A stretch of DNA of 64,000 nucleotides from Chryseobacterium taklimakanense (GTDB lineage: Bacteria > Bacteroidota > Bacteroidia > Flavobacteriales > Weeksellaceae): positions 1,612,001 to 1,676,000 of the forward strand of contig NZ_LT906465.1 of NCBI RefSeq assembly GCF_900187185.1. The letters run 5' to 3'. Made by a program: the position numbers and the translations under genes. The number at the start of each line of letters is the position of its first letter. The stretch's first letter is position 1. This document shows positions 38,951 through 59,881 of the stretch, in pieces. The notes under the pieces are model-generated. The model was given only the letters and a program-made list of their open reading frames with translations. It was not told the DNA's origin and did not search any database.

Positions 38951-38962
38951 CACTGAAAATGA

Positions 38963-38993: not shown

Positions 38994-39000
38994 ATATTTG

Positions 39001-39293: not shown

Positions 39294-39342
39294 GGCGGCT
39301 ATTTCTTTGGGAAATATCTTGGCCTCAACAAAATTCAACGAA

Positions 39343-40622: not shown

Positions 40623-40654
40623 TTTGTCCATTCTAAAATAATTCCCTATCTTTG
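40623..40654 (+). promoter_or_regulatory. promoter of the first metal-resistance unit
   Basis: TTTG (40623-40626), 20 bp, TATCTTTG (40647-40654). The ATG at 40670 follows by 16 bp, so the leader would be very short. Confidence 0.8.
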
Positions 40655-42350: not shown

Positions 42351-43634
42351 ATGATTCAAAATTTAATCAAACTGTCCCTCCGCAACAGGTATTTCGTGTT
42401 GCTGATAGCAATCGGCCTTTTTATCTGGGGTATTTTTGCGGTAAGGGACAATCCCATCGATGCCATTCCGGATCTGAGCGAGAACCAGGTCATCGTTTTT
42501 ACGGAGTGGATGGGCAGAAGTCCCCAGATTATTGAAGATCAGGTGACTTTCCCGCTGGTCAGCAACCTTCAGGGAATTCCGAAAATTAAGAACATCCGCG
42601 CCTCTTCCATGTTTGGGATGAGCTTCGTGTATGTTATTTTCGAAGATAACGTGGACATTTACTGGGCCAGAACCCGGGTAATGGAACGCCTCAACTATGC
42701 CCAACGCCTACTCCCGCAGGATGTTACCCCTACGCTCGGACCGGATGGCACCGGTGTTGGTCACGTTTTCTGGTACCATTTGGATGCACCCAAAATGGAT
42801 CTAGGAGACCAGCGCGCTCTTCAGGACTGGTACGTGAAATTTGCCCTGCAGACCGTTCCAGGTGTGGCCGAAGTTGCCTCCTTTGGCGGCTTCGAAAAAC
42901 AGTACCAACTCATTGTAGATCCTGTAAAACTCCAGTACTATAACGTCTCTCTGATGGATGTCATGAACAAAGTGAAAGCCAACAATAATGATGTGGGCGG
43001 ACGTAAATTTGAGATGGCCGATATGGCCTATATCATTCGCGGCCTGGGTTATATCAAGAACGTAGCAGATATCGAGGAAATTGCTTTGGGAAATTACAAC
43101 GGAATTCCTGTGCGGGTGAAAGACATTGGTTCTGTACAGATGGGTGGTGATTTGCGTCTGGGTATTTTTGATGCAGACGGTGAAGGCGAAGTCGTGGGCG
43201 GTATCGTAGTGGCACGGTATGGCGAAAATGCGGATAAGGTCATCAACGATGTGAAAGAGAAAATGAAGGACGTTGAAAAAGGACTCCCTGAAGGCGTCAC
43301 CTTCAAGACATCGTACGACCGCAGTACCCTGATTGAAGGGGCAATAGACAATATTAAAACCAAGCTGATTGAAGAAATTATCGTGGTGGCAATCATTGTT
43401 ATTCTGTTCCTATTCCACTGGCGAAGTGCATTGAGCATCATCATTCAGATTCCGGTCACCATTGCCATCAGCTTTATTCTGCTCAATGCGTTTGGACTTT
43501 CCTCCAATATCATGTCCCTTACAGGAATTGCGCTGGCAATTGGGGTGATCGTGGATAACGGAATTATCATGTCCGAAAATGCCTATAAAAATCTCTCCGA
43601 TTGGCAGAACCATCAACAAAATAAAAACCCATAA
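42351..43634 (+). pseudogene. cusA: CusA-type RND metal efflux permease, N-terminal part (frameshifted)
   Basis: The first 427 residues of a heavy-metal RND pump: TM1 at the N-terminus, porter domain (PDLSENQVIVFTEWMGRSPQ, LGPDGTGVGHVFWYHLD, VPGVAEVASFGGFEKQYQL), then TM2-TM4 with GVIVDNGIIMSENAYKNL (about 398), the HME4 (copper/silver) form. It stops at TAA (43632-43634) in the cytoplasmic loop after TM4. The rest of the pump continues in another frame from 43637. Together the halves give about 1080 residues, the normal size. Whether the halves work as two chains cannot be told. Confidence 0.85.
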
Positions 43635-43636
43635 CA

Positions 43637-45595
43637 ATGAAAACCAACTGGTTTAAAAATATATTCAGAAAAAAGAATAAGGAGAAAGACAGTTACGTTA
43701 AAATTCCCGAAGACATTCGGTTGAAGATTATCGAAAAATCATCCTTACAGGTATCCAGAGGCGTATTTTTTTCTACGGTAATCATCGTGGTTTCTTTTCT
43801 CCCGGTATTTATGTTGACCGGTCAGGAAGGTAAACTTTTTCATCCGCTGGCGTACACTAAAACATTCATCCTGATTGTTGATGCAATCCTGGTGCTTACC
43901 CTTGCACCGGTGCTGATCTCCTTTTTTATGAAAGGAAAATTTAAGGACGATAATAAAAACCCAATAAACAGGGGCTTGGAAAGGGTGTACGAACCGCTTA
44001 TCAGATGGTGCATGAAATGGAAAAAAACGACGCTTGGCATTAATATTTTGGCCCTGCTCATCAGTATTCCAATGATTATGAACCTCGGGCGTGAATTTAT
44101 GCCGCCTTTGGATGAAGGATCCCTGCTCTTTATGCCGGTAACCCTTCCCGATATTTCGAACTCTGAGGCCAAAAGATTACTGCAGGTGCAGGATAAAATC
44201 ATTAAAGGAGTTCCGGAAGTGGATCATGTCCTTGGAAAAGCTGGAAGAGCCAACACGGCGACGGATAATTCACCCATCTCCATGATAGAAACCATTATTC
44301 TGTTGAAACCGCAGAGCGAATGGCGCGACGGCAAAACAAAAGAAGATCTGATCGATGAACTGAATGCCAAACTGCAGATTCCGGGCGTAACCAATGGCTG
44401 GACCATGCCGATTTCCAACCGGATCAATATGCTTTCAACGGGGATTAGAACGGATGTTGGAGTAAAAGTATACGGCCAGAATCTGGACAGTATTGCCGTC
44501 CTTTCAGAAAAGATAAAAAAGGAACTCACGGGAATTGAAGGAATCAAGGATATGTATGTAGAACCCATTACCGGCGGAAAATATGTGGATATTGAAGTGA
44601 AACGCGAAGAAATAGGAAGATACGGCCTAAGTGTGGATGATGTAAATGCCGTCGTGGAAAGTGCCCTCGGCGGAATGAAACTCACCACAACCGTTGAAGG
44701 CCGACAGCGCTTTTCGGTAAACGCCAGGTACGGCCAGGATTTCAGAAATAATTTGGAATCTCTGAGAAGACTGCCCATGCAGACGATGGAATTTGGTTCC
44801 ATCCCGCTGAGTGCAGTAGCCGACATCCGTCTTACAGAAGGACCACCAATGATCAATTCTGAAAATGCAATGTTGCGTGGAACGGTTCTGTTCAACGTAC
44901 GCGACCGGGATTTAGGCAGTACCGTAAAAGAAGCCCAGGCAAAACTCAATAACATGGTGAACAAAATGCCAAAAGGTTATTTCGTGGAATGGAGCGGTCA
45001 GTACGAAAACCTGATTCGGGGCGAGCAGACTTTAAAAATGATTATGCCTCTGGTATTGGTCGTGATTTTCCTCTCCATGTATTTTGCGTTCAATTCTTAC
45101 CGCGAAGCTTTCTTTAATCTCATCAGTATTCCTTTTGCCCTAATCGGGGGTGTCTTTATGATTTCGATTTGGGGGGTGAACCTTTCCGTAGCCGTAGCAG
45201 TTGGTTTTATTGCGTTGTTCGGACTTGCGGTAGAAACGGGAATTGTGATGGTTATTTACCTGAACGATGCCATGATTCAGCTTACTACGAAGAACGGCAA
45301 CTCCCGGGAGACCATTAGCAATGAAGAACTTCGTGAATATGTCATCCATGGTGCAGCAAAAAGATTAAGACCGAAGATTATGACGGTTTGTGTGACCCTC
45401 TTCGGCCTAGTCCCCATCCTGTGGAGCCACGGTGTGGGAAGTGATATGATGAAACCCATTGTATTACCGATGGTCGGTGGCGTTTTCACTTCGGCCATTC
45501 ACATTCTTTTGGTAACGCCTATTATCTTTTATATGCAGAAGGAATGGGAACTGAACAAGTTGGGTAAAATTGACGTGCTCGACGCTTCCCATTAA
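43637..45595 (+). pseudogene. cusA: CusA-type RND metal efflux permease, C-terminal part (frameshifted)
   Basis: 652 residues covering TM5-TM12 and the second porter half. FLPVFMLTGQEGKLFHPLAYTKTFIL (TM5) follows the loop, then LGREFMPPLDEGSLLFMPVTLP and NRINMLSTGIRTDVGVKVYG, whose Met residues correspond to metal-relay Met of CusA. RYGLSVDDV has Leu where E. coli CusA has Met. The ATG at 43637 lies 2 bp after the stop of the first half, so reinitiation could make this chain. It is in the -1 frame relative to that half. Confidence 0.85.
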
Positions 45596-45613
45596 TACTT
45601 AAATGATTACAAA

Positions 45614-46861
45614 ATGAAAAAATTCATAATAACAGGAGCACTGGCCTTGCTTTACACCAATATTGATGCTCAGCGGATGCCGTTGCCCGCTGTAATGGAC
45701 AGTATCGCAGCCAACCATCCGGTGGTTAAAATGTATAATGCGGAAGTCCGGTCAATGGACGCTGCGGCCAAAGGCGCAAGAAGCTGGATGCCCCCAACCG
45801 TTGGAGCCGGGTTCTTCATGACACCCTATAATCCAAAACTCTGGCAACGCGACGGCGATATGCTCGGTATGGGCTCAGTAGCAGTTTCTGTGGAGCAGAT
45901 GTTTCCCAACACAAGGAAACTTGATGCCAACGAAAATCTGATGAAGGCGATGTCTTCCGTAGAAAAGGAAAAACTCTATGCCGCCCTCAATGAAAACTTT
46001 CAGGATGCGAAAAAACTGTATTACAGTTCAATCGTCCTGGATAAAAAGCTGCAGGTCGTAAAGGAAAACGAAAAGATGCTGGATTTCATGATCAGAAACG
46101 CCGAAATCCGGTACAAAAACGGACTCGGTAAAATATCGGCATATTACAAAGCAAAAGCTGCGCTTGGCAGTTCCAAAAACATGCAGCTCATGTACGAGAA
46201 TGACCTTCGCGTCAACCGGATCCGGTTGAATGCCCTCATGGGAAGAGACGCGCTCGCACCGCTGGAGATTGAGCCCGAATACAACCTGAATGATTATTCT
46301 CTCGAGACTTTTGGTCAGGATCTCTTTTATCAGAACAGAAGTGATCTCCGCGGCATCGACCGGGAAATCAATATTGCCAAACTCAAACAGGATCTGGAAA
46401 AGCAGAATCTGAAACCGGAATTTGGCGTAAAGTTCGAAAACATGTTTGGTTTTGGCGGCCAGCCCATGCAGTTTTCTCTGATGCTGATGGCAAAGCTGCC
46501 GTTTGTTTCCTGGGCTTCACGCATGAATAAAGCCAATATTGAAAGCCTCAAACTGAAAGAAGAGGCCTTGCAGGCGCAGAAAGAAATGATGGTGAACGAA
46601 TACAGTGGAATGGCCTACGGAATGCGCAATGAACTGGACCTGAATAAAAATCAGCTGAAACTCTATGAAGACACCATTATTCCGGCCTTAAAAAACAACT
46701 ACAAATCCATGCAGTTGGGCTATGAGCAGAATACGGAAGAACTCTTCATGTTATATGACGCATGGGAACAGCTGAATATGGCCCAACTGGAATATTTCGA
46801 GATCCTTACCAAAGCACTGCAGACGCAAACTGAAATTGACCGCTTAATTGAAAGAAGATGA
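45614..46861 (+). CDS. TolC-family outer-membrane efflux protein (CusC-like)
   Basis: A 415-residue exported protein (signal MKKFIITGALALLYTNIDAQ) with the long helical hairpins of TolC factors (for example NFQDAKKLYYSSIVLDKKLQVVKENEKMLDFM and MVNEYSGMAYGMRNELDLNKNQLKLYE). It forms the outer-membrane exit for the RND pump just upstream. Many Met residues (GAGFFMTPYNP, MLGMGS, MFGFGGQPMQFSLMLMAKL) are consistent with a copper/silver path. It overlaps the first adaptor gene in ATGA. Confidence 0.9.
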   Translation: MKKFIITGALALLYTNIDAQRMPLPAVMDSIAANHPVVKMYNAEVRSMDAAAKGARSWMPPTVGAGFFMTPYNPKLWQRDGDMLGMGSVAVSVEQMFPNTRKLDANENLMKAMSSVEKEKLYAALNENFQDAKKLYYSSIVLDKKLQVVKENEKMLDFMIRNAEIRYKNGLGKISAYYKAKAALGSSKNMQLMYENDLRVNRIRLNALMGRDALAPLEIEPEYNLNDYSLETFGQDLFYQNRSDLRGIDREINIAKLKQDLEKQNLKPEFGVKFENMFGFGGQPMQFSLMLMAKLPFVSWASRMNKANIESLKLKEEALQAQKEMMVNEYSGMAYGMRNELDLNKNQLKLYEDTIIPALKNNYKSMQLGYEQNTEELFMLYDAWEQLNMAQLEYFEILTKALQTQTEIDRLIERR

Positions 46862-48108
46862 GAAAAATTATAATATTCACTATGCTTTTATTTGGTTTGA
46901 CGGCGTGTGACAAAGTTAAGTTCTGGGAAGATAAGCACTCGGCAGAAGCTGCAATGCATACTTATACCTGTCCGATGCACCCGGAAGTGATTTCAGACAA
47001 ACCCGGCAAATGTCCCAAATGTGGGATGGATTTGGTCCTGAAAGATGCCCCTGAAAAAAAGGAAGAGGGGATTAAACTCGACGATCTGCTGAAACCAACC
47101 AATGAATTTGTACTGTCGGAACAGCCCGTAATAAAAGTAAAAAGAGAAAACATACCCACCACGGTTGATGCTTTAGGGACGGTAGAATACGATACTCGAC
47201 AGATTGGCAGTATTTCCTCACGCGTTGCGGGCCGTATCGAGAAACTCTATGTGCGGTATAAATACCAGAAAGTGTCGAAAGGGCAGCGTATTTTAGATAT
47301 TTACAGCCCGGAACTTTTAACAGCACAGCAAAACCTGCTCTTCGTTATTAAAAATGACCGCTCAAACAAAACGATGATCGATGCTTCACGCCAGAAACTC
47401 CTTCTTTTGGGAATGCCGGCTTCACAGATTCAGAAAGTCATCCAGCGAGGGAAACCTGATCTCACAGTTCCGGTTTTCAGCAATTACAGCGGACACATTC
47501 AGCAGGCAGGATCGGCCGGAAGCATGGGGTCATCACCACAATCTGCACCCGCAATGGCTTCAAATAACGCGGTCACCGCAGAACTACCGCTGAAGGAGGG
47601 AATGTATCTTCAAAAAGGACAGAATATTTTCAGTGTCTACAATCCCAACAGAACCTGGGCCCAGATCAATATTTTTTCTGAAGACATTGCACTGGTCAGC
47701 AAAGGACAGTCAGTCATGATCATCCCGGAAGCCAATCCTGAAAATCGCTTCAAAGGAACCATCGGTTTTATTGAACCGTTCTTCAGGCAGGGCAGCAAAA
47801 CCGTAACGGCGCGGGTCTATTTTGATAATTCCACCGCAAAAATTCCTGTCGGAAGTCAGGTTAAAGCGGAGATTATGAGCCACAACAGAATGGCAGATTG
47901 GCTGCCGAAATCAGCGGTGGTTTCTTTGGGGATTGATAAAATTGCGTTCAAAAAAGTTGAAGGCGGTTTTATTGCCCACAAGGTTGTTACCGGCGCGGTG
48001 GTAGGCGATAAAATTCAGATCGTCAGTGGTTTGCTTCCTGAAGATGGAGTTGCCGAAAATGCACAGTACCTGATGGACAGCGAAAGTTTCATAAAAATTA
48101 ACAGATAA
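46858..48108 (+). CDS. cusB: CusB-type RND periplasmic adaptor with N-terminal heavy-metal-binding domain
   Basis: A 416-residue lipoprotein (lipobox LTACDKV). The HMBD is YTCPMHPEVISDKPGKCPKC followed by GMDLV (about residues 39-63). The adaptor part has the barrel-sandwich segments VAGRIEKLYVRYKYQKVSKGQRILDIYSPEL and GMYLQKGQNIFSVYNPNRTWAQINIFSEDI. A Gly/Ser/Ala-rich insert (GSAGSMGSSPQSAPAM, about 217-232) is unusual. It joins the CusA pump to TolC and can hand over metal. The next gene is a second, different adaptor. Confidence 0.92.
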   Translation: MRKIIIFTMLLFGLTACDKVKFWEDKHSAEAAMHTYTCPMHPEVISDKPGKCPKCGMDLVLKDAPEKKEEGIKLDDLLKPTNEFVLSEQPVIKVKRENIPTTVDALGTVEYDTRQIGSISSRVAGRIEKLYVRYKYQKVSKGQRILDIYSPELLTAQQNLLFVIKNDRSNKTMIDASRQKLLLLGMPASQIQKVIQRGKPDLTVPVFSNYSGHIQQAGSAGSMGSSPQSAPAMASNNAVTAELPLKEGMYLQKGQNIFSVYNPNRTWAQINIFSEDIALVSKGQSVMIIPEANPENRFKGTIGFIEPFFRQGSKTVTARVYFDNSTAKIPVGSQVKAEIMSHNRMADWLPKSAVVSLGIDKIAFKKVEGGFIAHKVVTGAVVGDKIQIVSGLLPEDGVAENAQYLMDSESFIKINR

Positions 48109-48119
48109 AAATTGATAAG

Positions 48120-49325
48120 ATGAAATTCAATATTTTAATGCTTGCCTTGCTGGTTTTTCTTTACTCCTGTAAAAAGGAGGAAGATCCGCATGCCGGCCAC
48201 GATATCTACTACACCTGTTCCATGCACCCGCAGGTAGTCTCCGATAAACCCGGAAAATGCCCCATTTGTCACATGGATTTGGTGCCTGTGGAGAAGAAAA
48301 AGAATGCGGATCCTAACGAAATTGTTTTGAATGACGAGCAGGTTAAACTTGGGAATATCAAAACAGTCGCGCTCTCTGACGGTTCCATGGCTGATAAGCT
48401 CACGCTTACCGGAACACTTAATTTTAATCAGTACCAAATGCAGGCAGTAAGTTCCAGAGTAATGGGCAGAGTTGAACGGTTGTATTATAAAAACATTGGC
48501 GATTTTGTTCCGAAGGGGGCGCCGTTGGTCGATATTTACAGTGAAGAACTCAATAATGCAAAGCAGGAATATTTGCTGGCGCTTGAAAGACGCAAGCTGT
48601 TCGTCGGTAATACTTCCATTGATTTTGATCAGTTGCTCCAAAGTTCCCGCAACAAGCTTTATTTATGGGGAATGTCCGAAGGCCAGATCAAACAGCTGGA
48701 AAGATCAGGAAAAGCCACGCCAACCACTACCGTGTTCAGCAATGCAGCCGGTTACATCACCGATCTGAGCATTGCCGAAGGCGATTATCTTGCCGAAGGT
48801 GGCACCATCGTGAATCTGGCAGATCTTTCATCGCTTTGGGCAGAGGCGCAGGTCTATTCTTCCCAAATGGCTCTCCTTCAGAAAGACAGCAAGGTCACCG
48901 TATATATTCCCGATCTGGATAATCTGAAGATTAATGGGAAGGTTGATTTTACAAACCCGGAAATAAGCGCCTCCAGCAGGATAAATCTGGTTCGCATTTC
49001 CGTGCCCAACAAAGGAAATCTGCTGAAACCCGGCATGCCGGTATATGTTCTGGTGGAAAACAAATCCCGTGATGGTCTTTCAATGCCTGTGGATGCGGTA
49101 ATCAGGGATGGCAAATCTTCCACGGTGTGGGTGAAAACCGCGAAGAACACCTTCGTCAACAGAATGGTGGAAACGGGTCTCGAATATGAAGACAGAATAG
49201 AAATCACATCAGGAATTAAGGCGGGAGACGAAGTAGTGGTGTCCGGGGCCTACCTTCTGAACAGCGAATATAAATTTAAGAAAGGCGCCGACCCCATGGC
49301 CGGGCACGACATGAGCAATATGTAA
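48120..49325 (+). CDS. second CusB-type RND periplasmic adaptor with heavy-metal-binding domain
   Basis: A 401-residue lipoprotein (lipobox LYSCKKEE) with HMBD YTCSMHPQVVSDKPGKCPIC plus HMDLV (about residues 31-55), in which the usual Gly after the last Cys is His. The adaptor core includes VMGRVERLYYKNIGDFVPKGAPLVDIYSEEL and GYITDLSIAEGDYLAEGGTIVNLADLSSLWAEAQVY. The C-terminus is Met/His-rich (DPMAGHDMSNM). It is clearly diverged from the adaptor before it. It may form mixed complexes or serve the downstream RND pump. Confidence 0.92.
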   Translation: MKFNILMLALLVFLYSCKKEEDPHAGHDIYYTCSMHPQVVSDKPGKCPICHMDLVPVEKKKNADPNEIVLNDEQVKLGNIKTVALSDGSMADKLTLTGTLNFNQYQMQAVSSRVMGRVERLYYKNIGDFVPKGAPLVDIYSEELNNAKQEYLLALERRKLFVGNTSIDFDQLLQSSRNKLYLWGMSEGQIKQLERSGKATPTTTVFSNAAGYITDLSIAEGDYLAEGGTIVNLADLSSLWAEAQVYSSQMALLQKDSKVTVYIPDLDNLKINGKVDFTNPEISASSRINLVRISVPNKGNLLKPGMPVYVLVENKSRDGLSMPVDAVIRDGKSSTVWVKTAKNTFVNRMVETGLEYEDRIEITSGIKAGDEVVVSGAYLLNSEYKFKKGADPMAGHDMSNM

Positions 49326-49326
49326 T

Positions 49327-49788
49327 ATGAGAAAATTGAATATCATAGGTTGGCTGGCGGTGATAGTAGTGGCGGTTGTTTTAGCCATTCAGTTCATACC
49401 GGTGGAGCGTAATGTCTCCACCGTGCCGGCAGGTCAAAGTTTTGAAAAAACCGAAAAGGTGCCCGCCAACGTGGCTGCTATTCTGAAAGTTTCCTGCTAT
49501 GACTGTCATTCAAATAATACCCGTTATCCCTGGTATTCGGAATTACAGCCGGGCGCGTGGTTCATGGCCCGGCATATTAAAAAAGGCAAAGAAGAACTCA
49601 ATTTTGATGAGTTCAATAATTATTCAAAAAGACGCAAAAAAGCAAAAATAAAAAGCATCATCAGCCAGATTGAGAAAGACGAAATGCCTTTAAAATCATA
49701 CCGCATGATGCACGGAAACGCCAGATTATCAGCGGATGAAAAAAAAGAACTGTTAGATTTTTTTCGTGACAACGAATATAGTAAGTAA
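49327..49788 (+). CDS. haem-binding domain protein
   Basis: A 153-residue protein anchored by an N-terminal helix (IIGWLAVIVVAVVLAIQFIPV). It carries a c-type haem motif in SCYDCHSNNTRYPWYSELQPG (CxxCH, about residues 56-60) and a C-terminal helix with MHGNARLSADEKKELLDFF, the pattern of the Haem_bd family. Its start is 1 bp after the adaptor stop, so it belongs to the cus operon. It might donate or accept electrons for copper oxidation; this is inference. Confidence 0.88.
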   Translation: MRKLNIIGWLAVIVVAVVLAIQFIPVERNVSTVPAGQSFEKTEKVPANVAAILKVSCYDCHSNNTRYPWYSELQPGAWFMARHIKKGKEELNFDEFNNYSKRRKKAKIKSIISQIEKDEMPLKSYRMMHGNARLSADEKKELLDFFRDNEYSK

Positions 49789-49905: not shown

Positions 49906-50478
49906 GTGATGAAATTAAATATTAAAAATATGGTTTGCAGCCGATGTCTCAAAGTGCTTAGGCAAGAGCTTGAACAACTGGGAATTAAGGTTTCATCAAT
50001 TGAACTCGGGGTATTGGTAATCGACGAGACGGCCGGTAATCATAATGAAATTATGGAGAAAATTGAAAGCGTTCTCCATACCAATAAATTTGAAATAATC
50101 CATAGTCCAGAGGAAGTGCTCGTCGAAAAAATCAAACATTTTTTACTTCGTAAAATAGAAGAGCTACCTCTCGATTCCACGGTAAACCTATCTCAAATTT
50201 TAAGCACGGAGTTCAACCATGAATATAAATCGTTAAGCAAGCTATTCTCCCACATTGAAAATATAACTGTGGAAAAATATTTTATTAAATTAAAAATAGA
50301 GAAAGTAAAAGAACTTATTCAACTCAGGCAGTACACCTTTTCAGAAATAGGGCATCTCCTGGATTACAGCAGCGTCAACCACCTATCTAGACAGTTTAAA
50401 GAGATTACCGGAGAGAGCATGACTGAGTATAAAAATGCTGAACTAGCCAATCGAAGACCCTATGATGAAATTAGTTAA
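49906..50478 (+). CDS. AraC-type regulator with metal-binding N-terminus
   Basis: A 190-residue protein. Residues 1-70 look like an HMA-type ferredoxin fold with a CxxC (IKNMVCSRCLKVL) and the rest a complete two-HTH AraC DNA-binding domain (VNLSQILSTEFNHEYKSLSKLFSH, then YTFSEIGHLLDYSSVNHLSRQFKEITGESMTEYKN). A Cu(I)/Ag(I)-sensing activator of the flanking metal genes is the simplest reading. Either of the two adjacent ATG codons may be the start. Confidence 0.87.
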   Translation: MMKLNIKNMVCSRCLKVLRQELEQLGIKVSSIELGVLVIDETAGNHNEIMEKIESVLHTNKFEIIHSPEEVLVEKIKHFLLRKIEELPLDSTVNLSQILSTEFNHEYKSLSKLFSHIENITVEKYFIKLKIEKVKELIQLRQYTFSEIGHLLDYSSVNHLSRQFKEITGESMTEYKNAELANRRPYDEIS

Positions 50479-50810
50479 CCTTAGAACTTAGGCGTATGAA
50501 ATTATAAATAGGAAATAGTTGCGAAATAGAAACGGCAATCACAGGGACGTTTGCGCAACTCTCGATAAACTTCAGGTATAGTTTTGATGTTACTTGGCCT
50601 TTTTTTCGAAGCGAAATTATACAGAAACTAACGAAAATTATGCAGAACATCCGTTTAAGAAACTTGTACTTTTACAGTAGTAATTACAACCAGCTCGCTT
50701 TCAAAAACTACTTTATTGCAACACGAGTTTGGTCAAAATACGGCTCACAGAACGTATTTTAAACGGATAGTGGGAAATTTACAATGTATAAAATAATAAA
50801 ATCAAACAAA
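50479..50810. other. intergenic region between the AraC-type gene and the HMA gene
   Basis: 332 bp without a supported gene. An in-frame ATG at 50784 could extend the HMA protein by nine residues but gives an unusual lysine-rich start. I see no clear TAnnTTTG element and no terminator; the region likely contains a regulator-dependent promoter. Confidence 0.5.
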
Positions 50811-51062
50811 ATGAAACAACAAATTGAAATAACAGGAATGTCCTGCGAAGGCTGCGTTAAAAATGTCGAAAAAGCGTTGAAAGAAATTGATGGCGTACAG
50901 AATGTAAAAGCGAGTCTGCATCCACCGCGCGCAGTTATTGAAGCAGAGAAATCGATTAATACAGCGCAGTTAACGCAAGCCTTGGCGAAAGTAGGTTATA
51001 GTATTGCCGGCGCTTCCGTAGATGAGAATTTAACAAAGTCTGGTGGCTCCTGTTGCTGTTGA
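50811..51062 (+). CDS. heavy-metal-associated (HMA) domain protein, copper chaperone-like
   Basis: An 83-residue single-domain protein. The metal site is ITGMSCEGCVKNVEKAL (GMxCxxC, about residues 8-14) and the C-terminus adds GGSCCC, three more Cys, which is uncommon. It has no signal peptide, so it buffers or delivers Cu(I) in the cytoplasm, possibly to the P1B ATPase, which lacks an HMA domain of its own, or to the Csp protein next to it. Confidence 0.9.
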   Translation: MKQQIEITGMSCEGCVKNVEKALKEIDGVQNVKASLHPPRAVIEAEKSINTAQLTQALAKVGYSIAGASVDENLTKSGGSCCC

Positions 51063-51292
51063 AAAGTATGAACTGCGCGGGCAAGTATAACGTTAGTACG
51101 ATGTGAACGATAACGGTAGAAATGCTCCGCTGAAAACTAAGTGAAAGAAGCAAATAAATTTTTTAAAAAAAATCAAAGTAGCCAGCAATAGCTTGCCTGA
51201 TCAAACGCACTTATGATTGCGACAGGATCAGCGCAGGAACTGCATATTTATTGAAAAAACCAACCTATTTATTAACATAAAAACCAACAATT

Positions 51293-51634
51293 ATGACAGG
51301 TTATCACACGTACCAAAGTTGTATTGAAGCATGTTTAAAATGTGCTGCAATATGTAATCACTGTGCTTCATCATGCACTGAGGAAGAAGATGTAAAAATG
51401 ATGGCGAGATGCATTCAGTTAGACATGGAATGCGCAGCGATCTGCTATGCCTCAGCACAGTTAATGAGCCTCGGCAGCGACAAAGCAAAAGAAATTTGCC
51501 GCATTTGTGCCGACATCTGTGAAGCATGTGCTGCAGAATGTGAAAAACATGCACAACATGGAATGGATCATTGCCGTGAATGTGCAGAAGCTTGTAGAAA
51601 ATGCGCCGAAGAATGCCGGAAAATTGCAGCGTAA
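51293..51634 (+). CDS. Csp-like four-helix-bundle copper storage protein
   Basis: A 113-residue protein without signal peptide, with 20 or so Cys spaced along four helices (SCIEACLKCAAICNHCASSC, RCIQLDMECAAICY, ICRICADICEACAAECEKH, HCRECAEACRKCAEECRK). CxxxC spacing inside each helix matches Csp proteins, which line a four-helix bundle with Cys and hold many Cu(I). The lack of a signal peptide points to the cytosolic Csp3-type role. Confidence 0.92.
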   Translation: MTGYHTYQSCIEACLKCAAICNHCASSCTEEEDVKMMARCIQLDMECAAICYASAQLMSLGSDKAKEICRICADICEACAAECEKHAQHGMDHCRECAEACRKCAEECRKIAA

Positions 51635-51736
51635 TTTAAAACGGGTGGTGATTTTAATGATTGCCACTCTTTTTATCTACATCCTAACGACCAAATTAAA
51701 ATCAACTACCTTGAAACCCAGGCATAAAACTATGAT

Positions 51737-52048
51737 AATACCCTGCTTTTTGTGGGCTATCAGGCCGAAGGAACCCGTGGAAGAAAATTATTGGAGGGTG
51801 AGAAAGAATTAAAAGTGTACGGAAAATGGGTGCCGTTCAATATGGAAGTAGCGGAAATTGAAGGACTGTCTTCACATGCAGACCACAATGAACTCCTTGG
51901 CTGGATGAATGGAATAACAAATATTCCGGAAAGAATTTTCATCGTACATGGGGAGAAGGAAGGCGCAGAAGCGCTGCAGCTGGGCATAAAAGAAACCTAC
52001 GGCTGGGATTCCCAAATACCGCAACTTTATGATATTGAAGAATTATAA
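51737..52048 (+). pseudogene. C-terminal remnant of an RNA-type MBL-fold exonuclease (RMMBL)
   Basis: About 104 codons reading NTLLFVGYQAEGTRGRKLLE, then GLSSHADHNELLGWMNGI and RIFIVHGEKEGAEALQLGI: the end of a beta-CASP/RMMBL metallo-beta-lactamase protein, whose full length is usually above 450 residues. A TAA lies in frame at 51725-51727, and the metal-binding N-terminal domain is absent. The sequence just upstream belongs to the Csp gene, so the loss looks like a deletion. A short GTG-started product is possible but would have no active site. Confidence 0.8.
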
Positions 52049-52057
52049 TTTGGAGAT

Positions 52058-52618
52058 ATGAATCATATAAGGGACAGTAAAATCAAGCATTCAGAAGAGA
52101 CCAACTGGTATGTGATTACCGGCGGACCCAGTACCGGAAAAACAACGACCATTGATTTGCTTCAGAAGCAAGGTTACCATACGACAATAGAACACGCAAG
52201 GCATTACATTGATACCATGCATAATGAAGGAAATTCCGTTAAAGAAATTAGAAGCAATAAGAAGAAATTTCAATTGGGCGTGTTAGATATGCAGATTGCC
52301 CAAGAAGGATCGCTCAATAAGAAGGATATGGTTTTTTTGGACAGGGCTATCCCGGACGCAATGGCTTATTATCAATTTTTAAACTTGGATTATGATGAAA
52401 AGTTACTTAATGCCGTCAACCGGGTTTCCTACAAAAAAATCTTTATTTTAGACCGATTGCCTTTTACCAAAGACTACGCGAGAACGGAAAATGAAGACGA
52501 TCAAAAAGTAATTCATATGTTAATAATAGAAACTTATACCAATCTCGGTTTCCCTATCGTTTTTGTTCCGGTTTTGCCTCCTGCAGAAAGAGTTCAATAT
52601 ATTTTAAATAATTTATAA
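52058..52618 (+). CDS. AAA family ATPase/kinase-like protein (AAA_28 type)
   Basis: A 186-residue P-loop protein with Walker A ITGGPSTGKTTTIDLL (about residue 21), a Walker B-like MVFLDRAIPDAMAY (about 91) and LDRLPFTKDYARTENEDD. It resembles small AAA_28 nucleotide-binding proteins, some related to nicotinamide-riboside or pantetheine kinases. Its link to metal resistance is unclear. It lies 9 bp after the RMMBL remnant and may have been its partner. Confidence 0.85.
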   Translation: MNHIRDSKIKHSEETNWYVITGGPSTGKTTTIDLLQKQGYHTTIEHARHYIDTMHNEGNSVKEIRSNKKKFQLGVLDMQIAQEGSLNKKDMVFLDRAIPDAMAYYQFLNLDYDEKLLNAVNRVSYKKIFILDRLPFTKDYARTENEDDQKVIHMLIIETYTNLGFPIVFVPVLPPAERVQYILNNL

Positions 52619-52646
52619 GAAAAACCATTGTCAAACAAAATAAATC

Positions 52647-52654
52647 TATTTTTG
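52647..52654 (+). promoter_or_regulatory. -7 element upstream of the MerTP-like gene
   Basis: TATTTTTG fits TAnnTTTG, 51 bp before the ATG. A TTG lies at 52628-52630, a spacing of 16 bp, shorter than usual. Confidence 0.4.
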
Positions 52655-52705
52655 AAATTAGCATTAATTTAGATCTTTAAATATCAAGTAGAAACTTAAA
52701 ACAAT

Positions 52706-53335
52706 ATGAAAACAGACAGAAAATTAATCGGAGCAGGACTTTTGACAGCAGTTACCGCTTCATTGTGTTGTATTACACCAGTATTGGTTTTAATAGCAGG
52801 AACAAGCGGAATTGCTGCGACTTTTTCCTGGCTCGAACCTTTACGGCCTTATTTAATCGCGTTAACAGTTTTCGTTCTTGGTTTTGCCTGGTATCTTAAA
52901 CTAAAACCCAAAAAACAATTAGACTGTAGCTGCGAGAAAGATGAAAAAATACCATTCACGCAGTCGAAAATGTTTTTAGGGATTGTTACCCTATTTGCAG
53001 TCGTTATGCTTGCCTTCCCCTACTATTCAGCTGTTTTCTATCCAAAAACAGAAAAGCAAATTATAATAGTAGATCAATCTAATATCCGTAAAATAGAATT
53101 TACAATTAGTGGTATGACCTGCGCAAGCTGTGGTGAACATGTCAATAGCGAAGTAAATAAACTGACGGGAATTATAAGTTCAGACGCTTCGTACGAAAAC
53201 AAAAATGCAGTTGTGAAATTTGATGATTCAAAAACAAACATTGATGAAATCGAAAACGCCATAAACGCTACCGGATATGTAGTAACTGACAAAAAAGAAT
53301 ATCAATTGGAAACCCTTGGTCCTGAAAAACCATAA
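52706..53335 (+). CDS. merTP: MerTP-type fusion: MerT-like membrane protein with C-terminal HMA domain
   Basis: A 209-residue protein. The MerT-like part has three or four membrane helices with paired Cys in SLCCITPVLVL and a second pair in DCSCEKDE (loop). The C-terminal HMA domain has ISGMTCASCGEHVNSEVNKL (GMTCASC, about residues 136-142). MerTP proteins import Hg(II) for reduction by MerA. No merA or merR is seen in the window, so mercury, copper or another soft metal may be the cargo. Confidence 0.87.
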   Translation: MKTDRKLIGAGLLTAVTASLCCITPVLVLIAGTSGIAATFSWLEPLRPYLIALTVFVLGFAWYLKLKPKKQLDCSCEKDEKIPFTQSKMFLGIVTLFAVVMLAFPYYSAVFYPKTEKQIIIVDQSNIRKIEFTISGMTCASCGEHVNSEVNKLTGIISSDASYENKNAVVKFDDSKTNIDEIENAINATGYVVTDKKEYQLETLGPEKP

Positions 53336-53350
53336 TAAATTATTAAACAG

Positions 53351-53560
53351 ATGAATACAGTCAAATTACAGTCAATAATCACCTGCCCCAATTGCGGACA
53401 CAGGAAGGAGGAAACAATGCCTACAGATTCTTGCCAGTATTTCTACGAATGCGAAAAATGCAGGATCGTTTTAAAACCAAAACAGGGCGACTGCTGTGTG
53501 TATTGCAGTTACGGAACAGTGCCTTGTCCCCCAGTTCAGCAGGACAAGAAATGTTGCTAA
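53351..53560 (+). CDS. GDCCVxC-type small Cys-rich protein
   Basis: A 69-residue cytoplasmic protein with two Cys clusters: ITCPNCGHRKEETMP and YECEKCRIVLKP, then GDCCVYCSYGTVPCPPVQQDKKCC. The GDCCVxC motif names its family; it probably binds zinc or a soft metal. Such genes commonly follow merT-type genes, as here (15 bp spacing). Confidence 0.88.
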   Translation: MNTVKLQSIITCPNCGHRKEETMPTDSCQYFYECEKCRIVLKPKQGDCCVYCSYGTVPCPPVQQDKKCC

Positions 53561-53598
53561 AAGTCCTTACGTTTAACTAAATAACAAAAACCATTTTA

Positions 53599-54162
53599 AT
53601 GGACAAATCAACGCACAGCCACAAAGTTTCTCCGGACCATAGTGCCTCGGGGAAAACTCATTCTACACAGAATATGGATTCAAAAAAAGAAAGTGAACAA
53701 ATGGATCACAGCGGGGCATACAAAAAGTTGTTTTGGATGCTTCTCATTTCCTTCGTATCCATGTTTATATTAATGTATGCGATGGTTGATCGGTTATCCA
53801 ATGTGATTCCCAATATCAATCAGTTTTATATGGCCGGACTAATGGCTTCTCCTATGTTGATCATCGAACTGCTGTTAATGGCAAAGATGTATCCCAATAA
53901 AAAACTCAACAAGGTACTGATGGGTGTCGGTGTGTTGGCGATGGTGCTGTTTTGGTCTGGCATTCGGCAGCAGACAGCCGTGGGAGATGTCCAGTTCCTA
54001 AAGTCCATGATTCCACACCATGCAGGGGCTATTCTTATGGTCGAAGAAAGTAATCTGGTCGATCCGGAAGTGAGAAAGTTGGGCGAGGAAATTATCAAAG
54101 CACAGGAGGAGGAAATTGCCGTCATGAGGGCGAAAATTAAGGAACTTCAAACCCGGAAGTAA
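53599..54162 (+). CDS. DUF305 protein with His-rich N-terminus
   Basis: A 187-residue membrane protein. A His/Ser-rich start (DKSTHSHKVSPDHSASGKTHS, QMDHSG) is followed by three membrane helices and a C-terminal DUF305 segment: FLKSMIPHHAGAILMVEE and RKLGEEIIKAQEEEIAVMRAKI. DUF305 proteins often accompany copper-resistance genes and their HH motif may bind metal in the periplasm. It lies 36 bp before the ATPase gene and probably shares its transcript. Confidence 0.88.
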   Translation: MDKSTHSHKVSPDHSASGKTHSTQNMDSKKESEQMDHSGAYKKLFWMLLISFVSMFILMYAMVDRLSNVIPNINQFYMAGLMASPMLIIELLLMAKMYPNKKLNKVLMGVGVLAMVLFWSGIRQQTAVGDVQFLKSMIPHHAGAILMVEESNLVDPEVRKLGEEIIKAQEEEIAVMRAKIKELQTRK

Positions 54163-54198
54163 TCTCAAATAGCAGAATTTAACGCAAAAAATTAAATT

Positions 54199-56325
54199 AT
54201 GACAAAATACACCTGTCCCATGCATCCCCAGATATTGAAGGACGAACCGGGGAAATGTCCACTTTGCGGAATGAACTTAATTCCCTTGGGAGGAACCGCC
54301 CGACCTGAAAAAGACGAACGCAGCCATCATCATCAGAATCATGATCATCACTCAGAATCTGATAGTTCAGCGGCGGGATTTGACAAACATGCAGGTCATC
54401 ATACTTCGGATTTTCTAAAAAGATTCTGGATTACACTGGTACTTTCTGTCCCGGTGCTGCTGCTTTCCCACATGATTCAGCAGTGGCTTGGTTTCACCAT
54501 AGCTTTTCAAGGCGATAAATACGTGCTGTTGGTTTTGGGAAGTATTATTTATTTCTACGGTGGAATGCCTTTTTTCAAAGGGTTTTTGGGCGAAGTGAAA
54601 GCCGGAGCTATTGGGATGATGACGCTCGTTGCTTTGGCGATTACCGTAGCTTATGTCTATTCCGTTGCCGTCGTATTCGGGCTGCCGGGCATGGATTTCT
54701 TTTGGGAGCTCGCCACCCTAATTGTCATCATGCTTCTGGGTCATTGGCTCGAAATGCGTTCACAGATGGCAGCTTCAAAAGCGTTGCAATCTCTAGTTGC
54801 CTTACTACCAAATGACGTAACCGTCGAGCGTAACGGAAGTCCGGTAAAAATAAAACTGGAACAGCTGAAAAACGGAGATACCGTAATCATAAGACCGGGC
54901 GAAAAAATCGCCGCTGACGGTCTGATTGTCGAGGGCAGTTCCTATTTAAATGAAAGCATGCTGACGGGAGAAAGTGTTCCTGTAAGAAAAGAGGCCGGTG
55001 GAAAGGTTATCGCAGGGTCTATCAATGGAGACGGGGCTTTAAAGATAAAAGCAACAGGGGTTGGAAAGGATTCGTACCTCAATAAGGTCATTAATTTGGT
55101 TCAGGATGCGCAGGCAGCAAAGTCGAACACTCAGAATCTGGCGGATAAAGTAGCCAAATGGCTTACTATAGTAGCAATTGTGGTGGGAGTAGGAACTTTC
55201 GCTTACTGGTACATCACCATGGGAGATTTGGCTTTTGCTCTGGAACGGATGGTAACGGTAATGGTAACGGCCTGCCCTCATGCTTTAGGAGTGGCAATCC
55301 CTCTGGTGGTGGCCATTTCCACTACACTTTCAGCGACAAATGGTTTACTAATCAGAAACCGAACGGCTTTTGAAACCACGAGAAAATTATCGACCATTAT
55401 TTTCGATAAAACCGGCACCCTTACGAAAGGTTCCCACACTGTGCAGAAAATCATTCCTCTAACGGAACACTATTCGGAAAACGATTTACTCCAGTATGCA
55501 GCAGCAGTGCAGCAGAACTCCGAACATCACATTGCAAAAGGAATCATGCAGACCCTTTCCGAGAAAAAACTGGAGCTATGGAAGTCAGACAATTTCCGCT
55601 ACATGCAGGGAATTGGAGTGACAGGAATCGTAAACGGTAAATCGGTTGTCGCGGCTGGTCCTAATTATTTTGTTCAAAACAATAAACAGGTACCTGCCAT
55701 TCCGGAAGAAATCAACCAGGATGCAGAAACAGTGAACTTTATTTTGATTGATGACGTGCCCGTGGGTATTGTTTCTTTAGCAGATACCATTCGCGAAGGC
55801 GCAAAAGAAGCTATTGACCAACTTCGAAGCATGAACATTAAATCATTCCTGCTTACAGGTGATAACGAAAAGGTAGCGGCGGCGGTGTCAAAGCAGTTAG
55901 GAATGGACGGATATTTGGCAAATGTACTTCCGCACCACAAACAGGAAAAAGTAAAAGAATTTCAGGATAAAGGGGAAATCGTTGCGATGACAGGTGACGG
56001 CGTAAATGATGCACCGGCTTTGGCAGCAGCAGATGTAGGCATTGCAGTTGGCAGCGGAACTGATGTTGCTGCCGAAACCGCAGATATTATTCTGGTCAAC
56101 AGTGACCCTCGAGACGTGGTGAAAATGATAGATTTTGGAAAGAAAACCTACAGCAAGATGATCCAGAATCTCGTATGGGCAGTGGGCTACAACGTCGTGG
56201 CGATTCCACTTGCTGCGGGTGTTCTGTATCCCACATATGTCCTGAGTCCCGCCATGGGCGCAGTGCTGATGAGTGTCAGTACCATCGTGGTCGCACTTAA
56301 TGCAAGTTTGTTAAAAATTAAATAA
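54199..56325 (+). CDS. copB: CopB-type (P1B-3, CPH) copper-exporting P-type ATPase
   Basis: A 708-residue inner-membrane pump. It opens with an HMBD (YTCPMHPQILKDEPGKCPLC then GMNLIP, residues 4-29) and a His-rich stretch (RSHHHQNHDHHSES) in place of HMA domains. Catalytic motifs: TGES (about 255), the membrane metal site TACPHALGVAIP (CPH, about 360), phosphorylated Asp in FDKTGTLTKG (about 403), TGDN, and MTGDGVNDAPAL (about 600). CPH pumps transport Cu(II)/Cu(I) or Ag(I) outward. It is followed after 7 bp by the oxidase gene. Confidence 0.95.
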   Translation: MTKYTCPMHPQILKDEPGKCPLCGMNLIPLGGTARPEKDERSHHHQNHDHHSESDSSAAGFDKHAGHHTSDFLKRFWITLVLSVPVLLLSHMIQQWLGFTIAFQGDKYVLLVLGSIIYFYGGMPFFKGFLGEVKAGAIGMMTLVALAITVAYVYSVAVVFGLPGMDFFWELATLIVIMLLGHWLEMRSQMAASKALQSLVALLPNDVTVERNGSPVKIKLEQLKNGDTVIIRPGEKIAADGLIVEGSSYLNESMLTGESVPVRKEAGGKVIAGSINGDGALKIKATGVGKDSYLNKVINLVQDAQAAKSNTQNLADKVAKWLTIVAIVVGVGTFAYWYITMGDLAFALERMVTVMVTACPHALGVAIPLVVAISTTLSATNGLLIRNRTAFETTRKLSTIIFDKTGTLTKGSHTVQKIIPLTEHYSENDLLQYAAAVQQNSEHHIAKGIMQTLSEKKLELWKSDNFRYMQGIGVTGIVNGKSVVAAGPNYFVQNNKQVPAIPEEINQDAETVNFILIDDVPVGIVSLADTIREGAKEAIDQLRSMNIKSFLLTGDNEKVAAAVSKQLGMDGYLANVLPHHKQEKVKEFQDKGEIVAMTGDGVNDAPALAAADVGIAVGSGTDVAAETADIILVNSDPRDVVKMIDFGKKTYSKMIQNLVWAVGYNVVAIPLAAGVLYPTYVLSPAMGAVLMSVSTIVVALNASLLKIK

Positions 56326-56332
56326 TCACAAG

Positions 56333-59248
56333 ATGAAATATATATTTTCGCTCTTTCTATTTATGGCAATGTCCATAAACAGTTATTCACAGAGCACCAA
56401 AACCGTGTACACCTGCCCGATGCATCCGCAGGTCGTGAAATCAGCACCCGGTAACTGCCCCATTTGCGGTATGACCTTGGTGAAGAAAACCGTTACTGAG
56501 AAAAAAACGGCGGCCAAATCCGCGGCCGCTCCTAAAAAGGCCACCGTAATTAAAAAAACTACGGGTAAGAAACCTGAAATTACCGCTGCAAAAACAAAGA
56601 CGGTAACGGAAGTTAAAAAACCGGTGATGCCAAAGACTAAAGCAGTACCAAAAGACCCAGCGAGCATCAAAACGCCGGAACATTCAACACCTGCTCCGCA
56701 TCAGCATGAAGCAGCGCAAAAGATGTATACTTGTCCGATGCACCCCGAGGTGGTTTCGGACAAACCCGGAAAGTGTCCCAAGTGCGGTATGAATCTGGTC
56801 CCTCAGAAGGAAAGCGGCCGGCATCAGTCTACCGGCAAAACCCCGGAACATCAAACTTCAGATGCGCATCAGCATGAAGAAGCGCAAAAGATGTACACCT
56901 GCCCGATGCATACCGAGGTGATATCGGACAAACCCGGAAAGTGTCCCAAGTGCGGTATGAATCTGGTGCCTCAAAAAGGAAAGAAGGAAGATCATTCTGC
57001 ACACGGAAACATGCAGATACATGGTGAACACAAAATGGTCATGCCCATGCCCGAAAAGCACCTAAAAGGCGGACGCAAAGTGACCTACCATCTTTATGTG
57101 AAAGACACCCTGGTAAATTTCGCGGGCAAACAGAAACGCGCCATTGCCGTAAACGGGCAGATTCCGATGCCAAAACTGGAGTTTTATGAGGGCGATACGG
57201 CGGAAGTGATTGTCCATAATTTAATGGACGAAGAAACTTCTCTGCACTGGCACGGTCTTCATCTTCCAAATAAAGAAGATGGGGTTCCCTGGCTTACCCA
57301 GAAACCCATTCCACCACATTCAACCTACACGTATTCGTTTCCGATCATCCAAAACGGAACCCACTGGTATCACTCACATACTGGCCTGCAGGAGCAGGTT
57401 GGAATGTATGGGATGATGATTCTGAAAAAACGTCCCGAAGATCCTACTTTCCGGCCGGGGATTGATGATCTGCCCACAGAGCACCTTATCCTGAGCGAGT
57501 GGACAAACCTGAACCCCAATAATGTTCAGCGGATGCTTCACAACGCCAATGACTGGTTCGCAATAAAAAAAGGCAGTACTCAAAGTTATGCAGAAGCCAT
57601 AAAAGAGGGACACTTTAAAACAAAACTCACCAACGAGTGGAAGCGGATGCTTGCCATGGACGTGAGTGACATTTATTATGACGCCTTTCTGATTAACGGT
57701 AAAACAGAAAGCCAGCTCGCAGGATACAAAGCCGGTGACAAAGTGCGGCTTCAAATTGCCAACGGCGGTGCGTCCTCCTATTTTTGGCTCAATTATGCAG
57801 GAGGAAAAATAAAAGTAGTGGCCAGTGATGGATTGGACATTGAACCGATAGAAGTGGACCGTCTTATTCTGGCAGTTTCTGAAACAGTGGATATCGTAGT
57901 GGAAATTCCTGAAAGAAACACCTCCTACGAACTCCTTGTTACACCCGAAGACCGCACAAAATCTGCGTCAGTGTTTATTGGAGAAGGAGCTACGAAATCC
58001 CATGATCCATTACCCAAACTCAAATACTTTGAAGGGATGAAGATGATGAACGACATGATGAAGATGAACGGTGACATGAAAGATATGGGCATGAAGATGA
58101 GTTATCAGACGATGGATATGAATCAGGTGATGTATCCTGAAATTAGTGCTGAAAATAATGCAGCAATGCCGATGGACAAGATGGACAACAACGATGCGCA
58201 AATGGATCACTCACAGCATCAGATGCCTGCTTCCGGGATTACCACATTGAATTATGGGATGATGAAATCGCCTTATGACACTTCACTCCCGAAAGACAGT
58301 CCCGTGCGCGAGCTCAAGTTTACCCTTACGGGAAACATGAACCGCTACATATGGAGCATGGACGATAAAGTCCTGGCAGAATCTGACAAAATATTGGTAA
58401 AAAAAGGCGAAATTCTCCGCATTACCCTATTCAATAATTCAATGATGCGTCACCCGATGCACCTGCACGGTTTTGATTTTCGGGTACTCAACAAAAATGG
58501 CCTTCAGGCACCCCTCAAAAATGTGTTGGATATTATGCCGATGGAAACTAATGTCATCGAATTTGAAGCTAAAACTGACGGGGACTGGTTTTTCCACTGT
58601 CACATCCTCTATCACATGATGGCGGGGATGAACCGTGTTTTTGCTGTTGGTGATTATCAGAATCCTTTGCTGCCCGATAAAGCTTCAGCTTACAAAAAGC
58701 TCCAGCGCGAAAGTAACATGTGGCACCTGATGGCCGAAAACGATTTTGCTACTAATGGTAACGACGGGATGGCGAGGATCTCAAATGCCCGCTGGGAATT
58801 GGGAACAGAATGGCGTTTAGGTTACAATCCCCATCACGGCTACGAGGTGGAAACCCAACTCGGCAGGTATGTGGACCGTATGCAGTGGCTGAAACCATTT
58901 ATCGGATTTAACTATCGTTATAGAAAGATTGACAGGAATAATATTGAAAAAAACCTTTTTGGACAGGCATCTACTAAAGATGAAAGAAAAACTTTCAGCG
59001 CTGGTATCATGTATAAACTCCCGATGTTGGTGGACCTGCAGGCAGAAATATTTACCGACGGTATTGTAAGATTGCAGCTGACACGTGAAGACATTCCGTT
59101 GACTGCGCGTTTGCGCGGGGCATTCATGGTCAATACCGACAAAGAATATATGGCAGGTCTTAAATATATCGTCACAAAAAATATCGGAATCTCAACCCAC
59201 TACGACAGCGATATGAGCTGGGGTGCAGGGATTACACTGAACTATTAA
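56333..59248 (+). CDS. multicopper oxidase with three heavy-metal-binding domains and a CopB-like C-terminal barrel
   Basis: A 971-residue exported protein (signal MKYIFSLFLFMAMSINSYS). HMBDs start at about residues 26, 132 and 188, linked by Lys/Ala/Pro- and His-rich segments. The CopA-type oxidase has TSLHWHGLHLPN (about 303), THWYHSHTGLQEQ (about 342), then after a Met-rich insert (about 565-640, MKMNGDMKDMGMKMS) MRHPMHLHGFDF (about 705) and FFHCHILYHMMAGM (about 752), giving types 1-3 copper ligands. Residues about 788-971 resemble the outer-membrane protein CopB (YEVETQLGRYVDRMQWLKPF, LQLTREDIP) ending in a Tyr-terminated strand. It should oxidise periplasmic Cu(I) and bind surplus copper. 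Confidence 0.92.
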   Translation: MKYIFSLFLFMAMSINSYSQSTKTVYTCPMHPQVVKSAPGNCPICGMTLVKKTVTEKKTAAKSAAAPKKATVIKKTTGKKPEITAAKTKTVTEVKKPVMPKTKAVPKDPASIKTPEHSTPAPHQHEAAQKMYTCPMHPEVVSDKPGKCPKCGMNLVPQKESGRHQSTGKTPEHQTSDAHQHEEAQKMYTCPMHTEVISDKPGKCPKCGMNLVPQKGKKEDHSAHGNMQIHGEHKMVMPMPEKHLKGGRKVTYHLYVKDTLVNFAGKQKRAIAVNGQIPMPKLEFYEGDTAEVIVHNLMDEETSLHWHGLHLPNKEDGVPWLTQKPIPPHSTYTYSFPIIQNGTHWYHSHTGLQEQVGMYGMMILKKRPEDPTFRPGIDDLPTEHLILSEWTNLNPNNVQRMLHNANDWFAIKKGSTQSYAEAIKEGHFKTKLTNEWKRMLAMDVSDIYYDAFLINGKTESQLAGYKAGDKVRLQIANGGASSYFWLNYAGGKIKVVASDGLDIEPIEVDRLILAVSETVDIVVEIPERNTSYELLVTPEDRTKSASVFIGEGATKSHDPLPKLKYFEGMKMMNDMMKMNGDMKDMGMKMSYQTMDMNQVMYPEISAENNAAMPMDKMDNNDAQMDHSQHQMPASGITTLNYGMMKSPYDTSLPKDSPVRELKFTLTGNMNRYIWSMDDKVLAESDKILVKKGEILRITLFNNSMMRHPMHLHGFDFRVLNKNGLQAPLKNVLDIMPMETNVIEFEAKTDGDWFFHCHILYHMMAGMNRVFAVGDYQNPLLPDKASAYKKLQRESNMWHLMAENDFATNGNDGMARISNARWELGTEWRLGYNPHHGYEVETQLGRYVDRMQWLKPFIGFNYRYRKIDRNNIEKNLFGQASTKDERKTFSAGIMYKLPMLVDLQAEIFTDGIVRLQLTREDIPLTARLRGAFMVNTDKEYMAGLKYIVTKNIGISTHYDSDMSWGAGITLNY
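56669..57004 (+). repeat. tandem 168 bp coding repeat in the oxidase gene
   Basis: Two copies (56669-56836 and 56837-57004) each encode 56 residues: KTPEH, a His-rich HQHE element, AQKMYTCPMH, the HMBD and NLVPQK. The 3' half of each copy is nearly identical in nucleotides, including about 30 bases without difference, so the duplication is recent or kept alike by recombination. Confidence 0.85.
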
Positions 59249-59769: not shown

Positions 59770-59881
59770 TACTTTTCCTTCGGATTTATATTCGTAGGAT
59801 TATACGGCTATTTAATAGTCGTGCATTTCCGTGAACAATACGGAATATGCTCTATCCTTCAATTAACCTTAATTTTTACAA

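Follow-up and report, generated by a model that had tools for sequence, protein, structure and literature searches.

AraC-type regulators with an HMA-like N-terminal domain as a candidate class of copper sensor in Bacteroidota

How Bacteroidota might sense copper in the cytoplasm is a question raised by a single gene of Chryseobacterium taklimakanense, which lies in a 64,000-nt stretch of DNA (contig NZ_LT906465.1, positions 1,612,001 to 1,676,000; hereafter, the window). The initial annotation described the gene product as an AraC-type regulator with a CxxC-containing, metal-binding-looking N-terminus, and suggested a new class of copper sensor for the phylum. We found no description of such an AraC-HMA copper regulator in the open-licence literature (PMC).

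An AraC-type regulator with an HMA-like N-terminal domain

Translation of the regulator is likely to start at the ATG at 49909 rather than at the mechanically assigned GTG at 49906, because near-identical loci align from that ATG. The gene and its domains are as follows, in coordinates of the window:

49909..50478, + strand: AraC-HMA regulator gene, 189 aa (ORF and family searches)
49909..50106, + strand: HMA-like domain, residues 1-66, b-a-b-b-a-b (profile match, AlphaFold model, structural match)
49930..49947, + strand: MVCSRC metal-site motif, residues 8-13 (MVCxRC in 99/99 CxxC family rows)
50188..50436, + strand: AraC double helix-turn-helix, residues 94-176 (HTH_18; MarA structural match)

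The C-terminus is readily assigned, matching HTH_18 in Pfam as a single sequence (E 7.8e-11; 42.6 bits, cut-off 33.6). This domain is present in all 28 family members tested and superposes on MarA with a Z-score of 14.3 over 113 aligned residues at 2.2 Å (VIA-align). As for the N-terminus, the Pfam HMA model (PF00403) gave no match at E ≤ 1 with the regulator as a single sequence, its gathering score not being reached, and among 28 relatives it matched just one (E ≤ 0.01). A profile built from 28 relatives (A1) matches solved HMA proteins across residues 1-72 with E-values between 2e-5 and 7e-4, including the CopA HMA domain 1p6t (2.1e-5), CopZ 6ff2 (4e-4), and 1k0v (4.7e-4). The AlphaFold model of the regulator (mean pLDDT 86.2, pTM 0.78) places a b-a-b-b-a-b fold at residues 2-64, a linking helix at 67-84, and the AraC domain at 94-176, and residues 1-66 superpose on CsoZ (Z 8.9), ATP7B (8.4), and CopZ (8.4/8.3) in VIA-align. 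Because unrelated ferredoxin-like folds also score Z 7.4-8.0 against this N-terminus in VIA-align, the HMA claim is carried by profile, motif, and fold jointly. The initial reading of an AraC domain joined to a CxxC-bearing, HMA-like N-terminus is thereby confirmed by the family profile, the AlphaFold model, and the MVCxRC motif. Family model searches of the protein detected no CsoR, CueR, or CopY domains.

With these features, the regulator is a new variant among the AraC/XylS regulators. It has the double helix-turn-helix domain in common with AraC, MarA, Rns, and YesN but, unlike AraC/XylS proteins, lacks a cupin or receiver domain and carries a 66-residue HMA N-terminus within a total of ~190 aa. 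Fold and CxxC site are common to HMA copper chaperones and to the N-terminal domains of CopA/ATP7B; unlike the chaperones, AraC-HMA proteins are fused to a DNA-binding domain, read MVCxRC instead of the usual HMA motif GMTCxxC, and stay below the Pfam cut-off.

The regulator lies within a copper island

The placement of the regulator amid copper genes, as initially annotated, also held up: Cus-type RND genes (42351-49325) lie on one side and further copper genes (50811-59248) on the other.

42351..43634 and 43637..45595, + strand: split CusA (ORFs, named by reading)
45614..46861, + strand: CusC-like gene (ORF, named by reading)
46858..48108 and 48120..49325, + strand: two CusB-like genes (ORFs, named by reading), the end of the Cus-type block 42351..49325
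49327..49788, + strand: haem-binding-domain protein, directly upstream of the regulator (PF14376, E 9.7e-48)
50811..51062, + strand: CopZ-like HMA metallochaperone (HMA, E 4.4e-11)
51293..51634, + strand: Csp-type copper storage protein (DUF326 passed its cut-off; TIGR04401, at E 5.7e-14, did not)
52706..53335, + strand: MerTP-like transporter with HMA domain (NF033556 passed its cut-off with 295 bits)
54199..56325, + strand: P1B ATPase with CPH motif, CopB-like (ORF and family match)
56333..59248, + strand: multicopper oxidase with heavy-metal-binding repeats (family matches)

A phylum-wide family linked to copper transport genes

The genome of C. taklimakanense (2.76 Mb) encodes five full AraC-HMA members, the window gene included. 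Two of the paralogues (L010:7225-7785 and L009:16808-17371) directly precede CopA-type ATPase genes, a third (L009:7686-8240) lies a few kilobases from a Csp gene and a cupredoxin-like gene, and the fourth (L011:6474-7031), which is without the CxxC, adjoins a response regulator and a histidine kinase. A shortened AraC paralogue of 138 aa without an HMA domain is also found near the Csp and cupredoxin-like genes (L009:10314-10730).

Matches at E ≤ 1e-8 occur in 115/148 genomes of the taxonomic family, and in a sample of Bacteroidota the A1 profile matched 185/395 genomes and 96/171 genera (E ≤ 1e-12). The plasmid collection contributed 28 matching records, in which the protein is named AraC, helix-turn-helix, or response regulator, or is unannotated; all 28 come from genera of Bacteroidota. 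Judged by these sequence matches, AraC-HMA is a phylum-wide regulator family, and a broader one than the initial annotation stated. Our tree set of 120 distinct rows comprises 99 with the CxxC and 21 without. The motif reads MVCxRC in 99/99 CxxC rows, with Arg12 and both cysteines (Cys10 and Cys13) invariant, although these rows had been picked by a pattern that fixed the cysteines and limited positions 8 and 9, leaving Arg12 free; Phe61 is found in 97/99.

To gauge copper-gene linkage, 60 genera out of the 96 with matches were each represented by a single member, the top-scoring among the matches listed, with 21 Cys-less members (L011 and 20 others) and 20 generic AraC genes as controls. A P1B-ATPase or CopZ-like HMA gene lay within 2.5 kb of 47/60 members, as against 0/21 Cys-less members and 1/20 generic AraC genes, and the counts at 5.5 kb were 49/60, 1/21, and 1/20. 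At the locus of the sole Cys-less member with a marker, L228, a second member, with the CxxC, directly precedes that ATPase. In 43 of the 60 cases, the marker gene followed the regulator gene in the same orientation, no more than 2 kb away. No marker gene was present within 5.5 kb of 10/60 members, one of which (L195) proved on inspection to have HMA and DUF3347 proteins nearby. The member L203 keeps the CxxC but adjoins Dps genes. The P-type ATPases nearest a member were surveyed at 41 loci, 35 of which carry CPC, YN, and MxxSS, the signature of Cu+/Ag+ P1B-1 ATPases, while 5 have CPH (CopB-like) and 1 is truncated; there was no other type. Among the 80 nearest relatives of the regulator, which are not independent of one another, a metal-gene marker was found in 80/80 and a CopZ-like match in 75/80. 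The identity of the metal is read from neighbouring genes, and Hg(II) or Ag(I) instead of Cu(I) is possible.

Other copper sensors in Bacteroidota

If AraC-HMA proteins sense copper, their role would be that of CueR, CsoR, CopY, and CusRS/CopRS, namely, control of copA/copZ-type genes, although the folds and operators of those regulators are unrelated. Neither CueR (TIGR02044) nor CopY (TIGR02698) scored over its cut-off in any of 148 Bacteroidota genomes, with 1/14 control genomes passing for each model. CopS (TIGR01386) was over its cut-off in 3/148 genomes and CsoR/RcnR (PF02583) in 44/148, largely in one family (f18). AraC-HMA occurs in 72 of the same 148 genomes and together with CsoR in 6 (hand cross-comparison), a distribution that is confounded by phylogeny and compatible, at the level of gene content, with replacement of one by the other. 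The C. taklimakanense genome itself has no CsoR, and its matches to CueR and CopY are all below cut-off.

A 2024 study reported that the MerR- and CopY-type proteins of Bizionia argentinensis lack copper sites, and turned to ArsR proteins instead; its main text does not contain the word AraC (PMC11213822). We found AraC-HMA genes in three further genomes of Bizionia (L089, L098, and L105).

A candidate operator at a fixed distance from the -7 box

A repeat search in the 332-nt gap before copZ returned the repeat AAATTATACAGAA/AAATTATGCAGAA with a 21-bp period (50614-50647), which contains the first of the following predicted elements:

50616..50645, + strand: candidate operator, direct repeat ATTATACAG / ATTATGCAG with 21-bp period (diverged form of the family site)
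50667..50674, + strand: putative -7 box TACTTTTA, with one mismatch to TAnnTTTG, 14 nt downstream of the 16-nt proximal half-site

The repeat is retained, with some bases changed, in L042, L021, and L049, though the flanks there are altered or lost. When the 300 nt after the gene, some coding sequence included, were scanned for repeat periods in 60 genera, the peak fell at exactly 21, with 7 loci at ≥11/13 identity as compared to a mean of 0.6 and a maximum of 2 in 20 rounds of shuffling. Upstream of the gene there was no 21-bp period peak, and alignment and motif search of the upstream 200-nt regions revealed nothing clear above shuffles; autoregulation from upstream is therefore not supported. 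Rival periods of 18 and 20 came from a motif search that included coding sequence; they were ascribed to CopZ-like genes, and the search was repeated on non-coding gaps. There, unseeded expectation-maximisation converged on an ATTnTRTAAC direct repeat of period 21 with a log-likelihood of 212.5, compared with 66-121 for ten other periods (16 to 26) and 49-57 for 5 shuffled sets. In two-fold cross-validation, from which gaps too short for the operator (8/60 members, 12/21 Cys-less, 3/20 generic) were left out, 22/52 held-out gaps exceeded the 1% null threshold, as against 0/9 and 1/9 for Cys-less members and 0/17 and 0/17 for generic AraC genes.

Promoter elements, which were not part of the motif model, lend this site a fixed context. 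We counted TAnnTTTG, the -7 box of Bacteroidota, with up to one mismatch at 8-23 nt behind 28 sites and found 22 boxes, 20 at 14-15 nt, 2 at 20 nt, and none elsewhere in this range. A further 59 members, none of them part of the training data, yielded 9 with a site over threshold, each of these with a -7 box at 14-15 nt (9/9; random positions, 1.7%), and 50/59 had no such site, including nearly all of a 59%-identical marine group. The predicted sites, direct repeats with a 21-bp period at a fixed distance from the -7 box, resemble in layout the AraC I1-I2 operator, a direct repeat with a 21-bp period next to its promoter.

Against a position weight matrix threshold of 9.7, the sites of the own-genome paralogues in L010 (7786-7815) and L009 (16774-16803, minus strand) scored 15.1 and 10.0. 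The window site is regarded as a diverged form of the family operator because its score, 4.9, is below that threshold; its zero-mismatch match to the search pattern reflects that the pattern had been loosened to include it. The promoters named in the initial annotation fared differently, one having the candidate, albeit diverged, site at 50.6 kb and that at 40.6 kb having no good operator, only one match with 3 mismatches. The 40.6-kb region does contain a consensus-like promoter (40623-40654). Across the window, 8 Bacteroidota consensus promoters were found versus 3.1 expected, a weak excess because 4/100 shuffles reach 8.

Cys-less members and a possible stress regulon

The 21 Cys-less members form one clade, with weak support (86/57) and present in 88% of bootstrap trees. 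Because they are a single clade, their lack of copper linkage (0/21) counts as about one evolutionary event. The sister of this clade is L203, which retains the CxxC. Both L229, a Cys-less locus, and L203 adjoin Dps and cupin-like genes, and L227 adjoins a similar cupin-like gene. Cys10 has been lost in L227-L230; since L203, with its CxxC, already lies by Dps, the shift away from copper may predate that loss. The structure of a Cys-less paralogue is helix-strand-strand-helix, with the outer strands unassigned.

Scanning the C. taklimakanense genome for the repeat plus -7 box (≤3 mismatches) yielded 32 places versus 10 for the reversed pattern. Among the best sites, that at 879732 (L283) stands before a PPOX-like stress protein gene with Dps, and others precede genes for a superoxide dismutase (1789389, L286) and a lipocalin (873765, L285), all named by reading. 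A further site has no clear gene behind it (L282), and another stands before an unknown gene (L284). From the sites, we infer that the Cys-less paralogue may use the AraC-HMA type of operator for stress genes (Dps, SOD, lipocalin). Such operators, together with the Cys-less paralogues located by Dps elsewhere, suggest exaptation to stress control.

Proposed mode of action and alternative explanations

The regulator most probably acts in the cytoplasm as a transcription activator of the adjacent copper genes that responds to Cu(I)/Ag(I); a CopZ-like HMA domain would take the place of the usual AraC ligand domain. Cu(I) delivered by CopZ or the thiol pool would bind Cys10 and Cys13, upon which the metal-loaded HMA domains might pair or else free the DNA-binding domains. 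Two protomers would then occupy the direct repeat at the position of the -33 element and bring RNA polymerase to copZ/copA; in the window the target would be copZ, with the genes that follow it as possible further targets. AraC-type activators work from the -33 element position, immediately before the -7 box; the predicted site occupies the corresponding place, hence the term activator.

That the HMA-like domain instead takes no part in sensing and serves only for docking or dimerisation, or that the protein is a repressor released by copper, we consider unlikely. CsoR and CopY are indeed repressors, but the predicted sites keep a constant distance of 14-15 nt from the -7 box on its upstream side, which is where AraC-type activators bind, and leave the box itself uncovered, and the invariant cysteines speak against a merely structural domain. 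We would be surprised if the CxxC were a thiol-redox switch on an HMA scaffold, with the copper genes induced through copper-caused oxidative or disulfide stress. Such a switch would fit the occurrence of the same operator type and -7 box before the Dps, superoxide dismutase, and lipocalin genes of C. taklimakanense, as well as the CxxC-bearing L203 beside Dps. However, the Dps-adjoining class (L227-L230, with L229 by Dps) has lost Cys10, so the cysteine pair is not needed there, while members that do have the CxxC adjoin Cu-type ATPases, and Met8 and Phe61 are as in the Cu(I) sites of HMA domains.

A different soft metal, be it Hg(II), Ag(I), or Zn/Cd, is as a substitute for copper similarly improbable. 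The island does hold a MerTP protein, and HMA domains in general bind several soft metals, but the neighbouring P-ATPases are of the Cu+/Ag+ type or CopB-like in 40/41 cases, the remaining one being truncated. In addition, the island contains Csp and a multicopper oxidase, and inspection by eye of the ORFs between 38 and 62 kb revealed no MerA-like reductase. Silver cannot be told apart from copper on this evidence.

The findings support, as a hypothesis, the initial suggestion of a new class of copper sensor for Bacteroidota: the family is phylum-wide, the MVCxRC motif is invariant, linkage to Cu transporters is far above that of the controls, CueR and CopY models stay below cut-off and CsoR is rare outside one family, and the family has its own predicted operator-promoter geometry after the gene. 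We are evenly divided on a wider proposal, according to which, in much of Bacteroidota, cytoplasmic Cu(I) would be sensed chiefly by AraC-HMA proteins in place of CueR, CsoR, and CopY, through one conserved operator/promoter layout; the Cys-less paralogue would have kept this layout and come to control stress genes (Dps, SOD, lipocalin). If true, a metallochaperone fold was recruited as the ligand-binding part of a DNA switch and later lost its ligand. With a regulator family and a predicted operator in hand, cytoplasmic copper sensing in Bacteroidota becomes directly testable, and a possible use is a copper/silver-inducible promoter part for these bacteria.

Further observations on the copper island

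The copper region is bordered on its left by a tRNA-Asn gene and, after it, an excisionase-like HTH gene (window 38877-39684), and near-identical regulator genes occur in Chryseobacterium, Epilithonimonas, Kaistella, and Planobacterium; the two observations together suggest a mobile island. An att duplication at the tRNA-Asn is not supported, since searches for a repeat of the tRNA 3′ end, allowing ≤3 mismatches in the window and ≤2 in the C. taklimakanense genome, found none. In Planobacterium oryzisoli (L022 and L050), the island copy of the regulator is broken by stop codons, leaving an open frame of 76 codons, and the neighbouring copper genes are kept.

The ORF at 59882-64000 reads as an RND pump fused to a TolC-like outer-membrane channel and runs off the window. 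An operator-like repeat with one mismatch (59873-59902) shares bases with the start codon of this ORF, which may be coincidence. Finally, the CusA-type RND pump consists of two adjacent genes of 427 and 652 aa, with the break, by reading, in the loop that follows TM4. Close homologues with 68-83% identity, from three further genera (L155, L162, and L206), are divided at about the same position; CusA genes at greater distance mostly form a single ORF. The split CusA looks like a stable two-polypeptide pump.
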